NCBI RefSeq assembly: GCF_000217715.1
Contig: NC_015666.1
Span: 3,112,270 to 3,176,269 of the forward strand
Reading direction: 5' to 3'
Source of the DNA: Halopiger xanaduensis SH-6
GTDB lineage: Archaea > Halobacteriota > Halobacteria > Halobacteriales > Natrialbaceae
DNA: 64,000 nucleotides
A program made the translations under genes and the position numbers. The notes below the pieces were generated by a model. That model saw only the letters and a program-made list of their open reading frames with translations, made no database searches and was not told the origin of the DNA. Shown here one piece after another: positions 29,538 to 30,034 of this stretch. The stretch's first letter is position 1, and each line of letters opens with the position of its first letter.

Positions 29538-30034
29538 ATGGGCAGTACCGACGAGAGCAAATCAGGCAGTTCCGGCGGCACGTACGTTCTCGTGATCGAC
29601 GTCCCTCAATCGACGACGATCGAAGTCGGCGCGCTCGGCGACCGCGAGTTCGCCGTCGGCGCGTACGCCTACGTCGGCAGCGCCTTCGGCCCCGGCGGCT
29701 TCGCTCGCGTCGACCGCCGTCGGAGCGTGCTCCGACGAGCTCTCGCTCGCGGTGCTCGCGAGAACGCCACCGCGAACTCGCCCGCGGCGAGCGCGACGCC
29801 CGCCACTGGCACGTCGATTACCTGCTCGGTCACCCGGAAACGGAACTCGAGACCGCCGTCACGTTCCCCGACGCCGATCGGGAGTGCGAACTGGCCGCGT
29901 CGCTCCCGGGTGAGCCGGTCGCGGGCTTCGGCGCCTCCGACTGCGACTGTTCGGCGCACCTGCTCGCCGCGCCGTCGATCGACGCCGTGCTCGAGGCGGC
30001 GGTCGATGCGGGCGGTGTTCGGGACGGCGCGTAG
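29538..30034 (+). pseudogene. DUF123 (GIY-YIG-like) domain protein, frameshifted by a 50-bp insertion
   Basis: The first frame gives a clear DUF123 N-terminus: GTYVLVIDVPQSTTIEVGAL...GAYAYVGSAFGPGGFARVDR. After position 29717 it degenerates into Arg/Ser-rich nonsense. From 29768 the +1 frame resumes the family sequence (HRELARGERDARHWHVDYLLGH, then GASDCDCSAHLL) to the TAG at 30032-30034. Removing 50 bp restores a continuous protein of about 148 residues. DUF123 proteins are GIY-YIG-related and occur alone or fused to DNA-repair enzymes in archaea. As it stands the gene is broken, unless the insert is a sequencing artefact, which its palindromic structure makes unlikely. Confidence 0.8.
29715..29764. 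repeat. 50-bp palindromic (REP-like) insertion with CGCC direct repeat
   Basis: It contains a perfect 18-bp palindrome GTCGGAGC-GT-GCTCCGAC (29719-29736) and a second stem TCTCGC/GCGAGA (29741-29763). It is bounded by CGCC at 29715-29718 and again at 29765-29768, as a 4-bp target duplication would be. Its length is not a multiple of three, so it shifts the frame of the host gene. Confidence 0.65.

Follow-up and report, generated by a model that had tools for sequence, protein, structure and literature searches.

Why does the DUF123 gene of Halopiger xanaduensis SH-6 (genome G000) break off in one reading frame and resume in another 50 bp further on, and what is the DNA that separates the two parts? 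We addressed this question within a stretch of 64,000 nucleotides of this genome (the window) and by comparison with other genomes of the Halobacteria. An earlier note, made from the sequence alone, had described the gene as broken by a live or recently mobile REP/MITE-like palindromic element, and both the coordinates and the Pfam matches agree with the break and the change of frame that it proposed (Table 1). The upstream piece scores 24.0 bits against PF01986, slightly below the cut-off of 25, and since the two pieces correspond to positions 2-26 and then 27-94, the family sequence is unbroken across the break. The downstream frame, HRELARGERDARHWHVDYLLGH... (HRELARG), runs for 88 amino acids until the stop codon at 30032-30034. 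Directly upstream of the gene lies a 581-codon open reading frame with extreme Gln/Arg/Gly-rich repeats (window positions 27669-29414, plus strand).

Table 1. Features of the interrupted DUF123 gene of G000, in window positions.
Feature	Position	Strand	Basis
DUF123 gene, 5' part	29538..29717	+	PF01986 positions 2-26, ATG frame ending GFARVDR
50-bp insert, copy of the two-hairpin element	29718..29767	+ (canonical orientation: minus strand)	Orthologue comparison, model R1
Hairpin B, CGTCGGAGC-GT-GCTCCGACG, 9-bp arms	29718..29737	.	Covarying stem, 96 distinct copies
Hairpin A, TCTCGC / GCGAGA stem, TC/TC internal mismatch, inner GC/GC pairs	29741..29763	.	Covarying stem, 96 distinct copies
CGCC (GGCG on the canonical strand) at the 3' end of the element	29715..29718	.	
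CGCC (GGCG on the canonical strand), target tetranucleotide, 5' end of the element	29765..29768	.	
DUF123 gene, 3' part	29768..30034	+	PF01986 positions 27-94, shifted one frame, intact to stop

The insert is bounded by CGCC and contains a second, imperfect stem, both as noted earlier. The feature previously called an 18-bp perfect palindrome does have 18 paired nucleotides, which are however interrupted, a 2-nt spacer parting the two 9-bp arms of hairpin B. Structure alone was dropped as evidence for an insertion, as hairpin B is unremarkable against simulated windows (10 palindromes of this kind in the window, as compared to a mean of 4.1 in 20 simulated windows); DNA folding of the insert region gave z = -1.5. 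The insert is a real feature because exactly that stretch is absent from 59 of the 63 orthologues that were measured.

These orthologues were obtained by searching 125 genomes of the family, which yielded 70 DUF123 loci. The loci omitted from the count were G014, G087, G084, G085, G024 and G073 (incomplete flank pair) and G062 (rearranged), and the genes of G073 and G062 were read by hand, outside the 63 counted. The earlier note had proposed a comparison with relatives, and had named a unique core without an empty-site allele as evidence to the contrary; the empty site, with nothing between VDR and HRE, exists, also in G001 from the same genus. The same base is filled in the same orientation in G000 (50 bp), G093 (50 bp), G065 (51 bp) and G094 (48 bp). 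Changes in the loop length of hairpin B keep the frame at the junction in G065, which has a 178-residue open frame including the entire C-terminal part, and in G094, where the gene is otherwise badly diverged. The G093 gene is out of frame with its downstream part intact, as are the genes of G062 and G073, in which an element lies at or adjoining a second site 36 bp downstream of the first. In G062, the element at the second site is accompanied by a deletion within the N-terminal part, and in G073 its left junction is like site 1 and its right junction like site 2. On the canonical strand, the two sites have the same sequence, GTGGCG.

For every filled gene at site 1, the closest relative of the gene is empty and from the same genus, with identities outside the insert of 0.879 (G000 and G001), 0.953 (G065 and G061), 0.818 (G093 and G089) and 0.613 (G094 and G091). 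In a tree of the 63 genes with the insert removed, the four filled rows need four changes that are forced by well supported branches, and a single clade of filled genes was rejected (p-AU 5.9e-71), the branch of G094 being very long. The four inserts at site 1 are located on separate branches, and the one in G000 is specific to its lineage, barring many losses in other lineages. The 50-bp unit shifts the frame of the G000 gene, splits its open reading frame and probably silences it, and loss of the full-length protein is expected. Downstream of the break, one replacement was counted on the G000 branch as compared to seven silent changes, with two replacements unresolved, which indicates that the insertion is young or that the downstream part is still in use.

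The flanks of the DUF123 inserts resemble the sister gene right up to the boundary and so give no sign that a longer tract was transferred. Similarity among the inserts is 0.79-0.91; to other copies in their own genome it is at most 0.82 (G065, G093 and G094 compared), and to the best copies in other genomes 0.84-0.91. Because they are closer to each other than to the copies in their own genomes, and because G000 lacks another full copy that could have been the donor, plain intragenomic transposition fits poorly. The similarities suggest instead that the same stem type repeatedly reaches the DUF123 site from outside the genome, or that it was present and has been lost.

The insert is one copy of a dispersed family of two-hairpin elements of about 46-56 bp in the Halobacteria, which we identified by a search with the insert and then with a covariance model of 20 copies. 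Matches were found in 122 of the 125 family genomes (E <= 0.01) and in 224 of 292 genomes of the class, covering 66 of 77 genera (E <= 1e-4); the E-values of the model are rough, and weak matches are partly false. The insert itself scores 78.6 bits with model R1, the top score among the genome-search matches listed. Many copies in G000 were not recovered: this genome contains a single full copy, its next-best match (30.3 bits) being background, and 91 bp of the locus matched only itself when searched against its own genome. Copy numbers in four genomes were 44, 44, 45 and 78 (150 candidates scored, E <= 1e-4). An exact degenerate pattern searched in a collection of 84,980 species gave 13 stretches, all in Halobacteria (Natribaculum, Natrinema, Halorussus, Halegenticoccus, Salinibaculum, Halomarina, Salinirussus and MAGs), and it occurred in six plasmid records, all haloarchaeal, and in none of the viral contigs searched. 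No curated Rfam family matched the element in the eight element loci searched; the Rfam leuA-Halobacteria RNA was recovered above its gathering score at L228:352-404, about 600 bp from an element copy.

In canonical orientation, the element reads GNNG, stem A, a GAGCGAAGCGAG-like inner part, stem A', GCTCG, stem B, loop, stem B' and GGYG. Both stems are GC-rich, one of 6 bp and the other of up to 9 bp, and the two unlike hairpins occur in a fixed order; the inner GCGAAGC is a famously stable DNA mini-hairpin. We analyzed the structure with model A3 in 99 copies from 88 loci (96 distinct), the loci being chosen to limit repeats. Both hairpins covary strongly, with 16 of 17 pairs changing on both sides and 95.6% of the pair cells paired. 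Cells changed on both sides numbered 213, as compared to 51.9 in shuffles, a comparison favored by the fitting of the alignment to the model; an earlier MAFFT alignment of 20 copies gave 8 covarying pairs, as compared to 2.6. Paired changes could also arise without selection, through hairpin-templated mutation.

The left and right tetramers are identical in 44 of the 96 copies, as compared to 29.6 by shuffling, an excess that could stem from target duplication or from relatedness. As a general rule, target duplication is contradicted, despite these equal tetramers, by the IleRS gene of G066, where the filled site reads GTGGAC-GACG-[TCTCC...GACGGTG]-ACCTCGAG and the empty site GTCGAC-GACG-ACCTCGAA. 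The left tetramer is the GACG of the target and the right one the GGTG of the element, which indicates insertion after the tetranucleotide without duplication. With no duplication at this informative junction and no terminal inverted repeats, the element is not a MITE; the other half of the earlier description, an inserted and dispersed palindromic unit that is REP-like, largely stands. The IleRS gene of G094 differs at the left tetramer from that of its relative G089, with GGCG in place of GACG. The left tetramer is preceded by GAC in 14 of 51 clusters (background 6.6%, p 3.7e-6). We rejected homology-guided targeting, in which the downstream target resembles the 5' end of the element: 91 sites gave 5.35 matches versus 4.69 (0 of 1000 shuffles), but the signal was gone with one site per context cluster (51 sites; 4.83 versus 4.62, mean p 0.13). 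Two loci of G094, L106 and L107, have common extra flanking bases, CGTCGAC...GACCTCGAG, reflecting either a longer target preference or copying that included the flanks.

Some copies are found in non-coding DNA, and others within conserved genes, where they keep the reading frame. In about 22 of 40 high-scoring contexts, the element is placed within a long coding frame or at its end, as judged by frame and GC3; these contexts were taken from the top of the family listing, and the coding share is no estimate for all copies. In 20 of the approximately 22 coding copies, the element has one orientation and one frame and encodes GVSASDASGGSSDESDG-like peptides. NCBIfam matches were obtained for eight of the ten host proteins submitted, namely IleRS, GatE, Kae1-Bud32, aconitase, adenylosuccinate synthase (PurA), threonine synthase (ThrC; at the C-terminus) and, below the cut-off, an acetolactate-synthase-like enzyme and an OGG-like glycosylase. 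By our own reading, argininosuccinate synthase, phosphoglycerate mutase, MetX and a histidine kinase are putative further hosts. Plasmid coding sequences annotated through the element include ctaD of Halorussus vallis and P-type ATPases of Halomicrobium urmianum, Halorussus salilacus and Natrinema versiforme; in match lengths, the ATPase has a longer form of 801 bp in 4 of the 25 records listed, and the others are about 759. The filling of the same base in other genera and the in-frame position of the family in most other conserved genes examined extend the picture that the window gave by itself.

Histidine kinases at L126, L131 and L063 contain 48-bp units, NAVEHGSTSPRSHARE, whose DNA matches the element model, and the units are in tandem in L126 and L131, so that the element can form an in-frame array. 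The remaining contexts are non-coding, some within longer repeats. The non-coding copies at L127, L128, L135, L137 and L219-L222 have a constant neighbor, TTTCAGTCC(C)ACC (reverse GGTGGACTGAAA); copies with this neighbor come from two distant genera and are parts of longer repeats.

Two host genes were compared at their best 30 loci, from 123 genomes matched for Kae1 and 122 for IleRS. Kae1-Bud32 is filled at 13 of 30 loci, all at the same place and all by multiples of three, with 54, 63 or 45 nt between the anchors as compared to 6 nt if empty. The tree of these loci needs eight changes and a single clade was rejected (p-AU 1.6e-8); nine losses would also suffice. Kae1 is filled and DUF123 empty in G001, and the opposite is true of G000. 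At L205 (G088), the empty Kae1 site has one extra codon (GGTGGCGTG), possibly an excision footprint. For IleRS, 25 of the 30 loci are empty, two contain the two-hairpin element and three have other hairpin inserts in the same loop. The latter, in L299 (G023), L301 (G036) and L305 (G104), are different hairpins, some with a GCGAAGC core, and from these three inserts other element families of a similar sort probably exist.

We consider it likely that the insert represents a small non-autonomous two-hairpin mobile element of the Halobacteria, with the following mode of movement and effect. The substrate would be single-stranded DNA, accessible during replication or when DNA enters the cell, that folds into the two hairpins through which it is recognized. 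Cleavage would follow GGYG at the right end, and the strand would be joined to the 3' side of a short motif in the target, (GAC)GGCG or GACG, with no duplication of the target. The stem sequences would be free to drift as long as they still pair. A unit whose length is a multiple of three, the case in most of the conserved genes examined, would be retained and translated into a peptide rich in Gly, Ser and Asp, and the 50-bp unit in DUF123 of G000 instead disrupts the frame as described above. REP/RAYT and PATE elements, which are of IS200/IS605 ancestry, have palindromes near their ends and a short end oligonucleotide, and do not duplicate the target. The haloarchaeal element has the form of IS200/IS605 derivatives, with subterminal hairpins, insertion 3' of a tetranucleotide and no duplication at the one fully informative junction. 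Single-strand transposition of this kind fits in form, given the two hairpins, the end tetranucleotides, the lack of duplication and the covarying stems, and we hold it to be a possibility a little short of an even chance.

Such a form would also be expected if a Y1 transposase of the IS200/IS605 or RAYT type moved the element, which would then be an archaeal REP or PATE, and Y1 genes (PF01797) are indeed present in 93 of the 125 family genomes. Yet none was found in the other 32, including G000, whose insert is lineage-specific, and the number of elements does not follow that of Y1 genes across the 125 genomes (mean 7.1 without and 5.5 with Y1; Spearman -0.08). No dependence on Y1 transposases emerged from this comparison, and we regard a Y1 mover as unlikely. 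Because PF01797 was not found in G000 and 31 more genomes and copy numbers do not track it, our proposal of a likely mechanism extends to the chemistry and names no enzyme. Similarly improbable in our view is one ancient insertion per site followed by repeated precise deletion, with slippage across the hairpins from one short GGCG repeat to the other. It would account for the mutual similarity of inserts at one site, which are of one stem type, for the 63-nt type of Kae1 that appears to be shared by G069, G072, G073, G008, G009 and G107, for the near-equal numbers of losses and changes in the Kae1 tree, and for the extra codon in G088 if this is a footprint. For DUF123, however, it would take 17 exact losses (14 without G094) as compared to four gains, and G061 is empty despite 95% identity to the filled G065, as are G064 and G075.

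We consider it very improbable that the 50 nt act as an intron or are bypassed in translation, either of which would still yield a complete DUF123 protein. A hop between identical codons (CGC at 29715 and 29765) can be drawn, the downstream frame is intact with few replacements on the G000 branch, and G093 and G073 are likewise out of frame with an intact downstream part. A recent insertion accounts for the intact frame, the length changes in hairpin B restore the junction frame in G065 and G094, and if the units were removed there would be no need for other copies to stay in frame, as most of those examined in conserved genes do. Local mutation, by templated quasi-palindrome formation or tandem duplication, can point to an 83% direct repeat of 29651-29673 that overlaps the insert, but as three other genomes have a member of the family at this very base, and numerous unrelated loci have one too, we give it, like an assembly error, practically no credence. 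An mRNA intron, a bypass element and an assembly error were all set aside for the DUF123 insert. A mobile two-hairpin element remains our preferred reading. A bolder and more tentative version, which we would place clearly below an even chance, is that a class-wide element of about 50 bp is moved by an enzyme other than the known Y1 transposases, returns to the same nucleotide across lineages in a homing-like manner and serves as a source of in-frame Gly/Ser/Asp linkers in core proteins, Kae1 and IleRS among them.

If the mobile-element reading is true, the Halobacteria have a nearly class-wide counterpart of the Rickettsia palindromic elements inside universally conserved genes, and the natural pairs of filled and empty sites could be used to study how proteins take up foreign peptides. 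For annotation, a 50-bp allele makes a whole gene resemble a pseudogene or a wrong fusion. A puzzle would then be by what means a two-hairpin unit repeatedly reaches one and the same base in genomes that lack a Y1 transposase.

The two-hairpin element is undescribed in the accessible portions of the open literature searched for haloarchaeal or intragenic palindromic elements. The covered portion of the table in a REP survey (PMC12306157) includes no haloarchaeon. PATEs occur in a haloarchaeon, Haloquadratum, and one of them, HqIRS46, has a 52-bp "terminal only" form (PMC3119063); as far as this source describes them, PATEs appear to differ from our element in size and ends. Unlike REP/RAYT and PATE, the haloarchaeal element showed no link to a Y1 transposase in the 125 genomes. 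In the same source, the SMR elements of Haloquadratum are described as having no transposase, a size of 80-110 bp, terminal inverted repeats and other mobile elements as targets, with no target duplication for SMR-A (PMC3119063). By these descriptions they resemble the two-hairpin element in being haloarchaeal and without a transposase, but differ in size, terminal inverted repeats and targets. Rickettsia palindromic elements are described in general as in-frame palindromic units of about 150 bp in unrelated metabolic genes (PMC10969869), and from that description they are alike in their in-frame insertion and differ in size, sequence and host.

Closest are the CGTC-tagged REPs, including RPE-4 and RPE-6, described in PMC3733652, a text in which a term search gave no word with "halo" and archaea in the references only. 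According to this source, they are short palindromic repeats, some of them in open reading frames and read in frame, also in genes for DNA repair, tRNA synthetases and tRNA modification, with recB of two Xanthomonas carrying them at about the same site; they "seem lacking a dedicated transposase", and their tag is often altered to TGTC or CCTC (PMC3733652). They are further described there as single hairpins of 20-40 bp with stems of 8-9 bp that start with A/T pairs and a CCA tail, mostly arranged as head-to-head dimers (PMC3733652). The haloarchaeal element has none of this single-hairpin architecture, being a fixed head-to-tail pair of unlike, GC-rich hairpins with a GGYG end. Like the CGTC-tagged elements, some of its copies are inside open reading frames and read in frame. 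Its stem A is preceded by CGTC in 36 of 96 copies and by NGTC in 65 of 96 (TGTC in 10, GGTC in 11 and AGTC in 8, with CCTC in 1). The intragenic REP/RPE elements of bacteria are the nearest known kind, and the element looks like an undescribed haloarchaeal variant of it.
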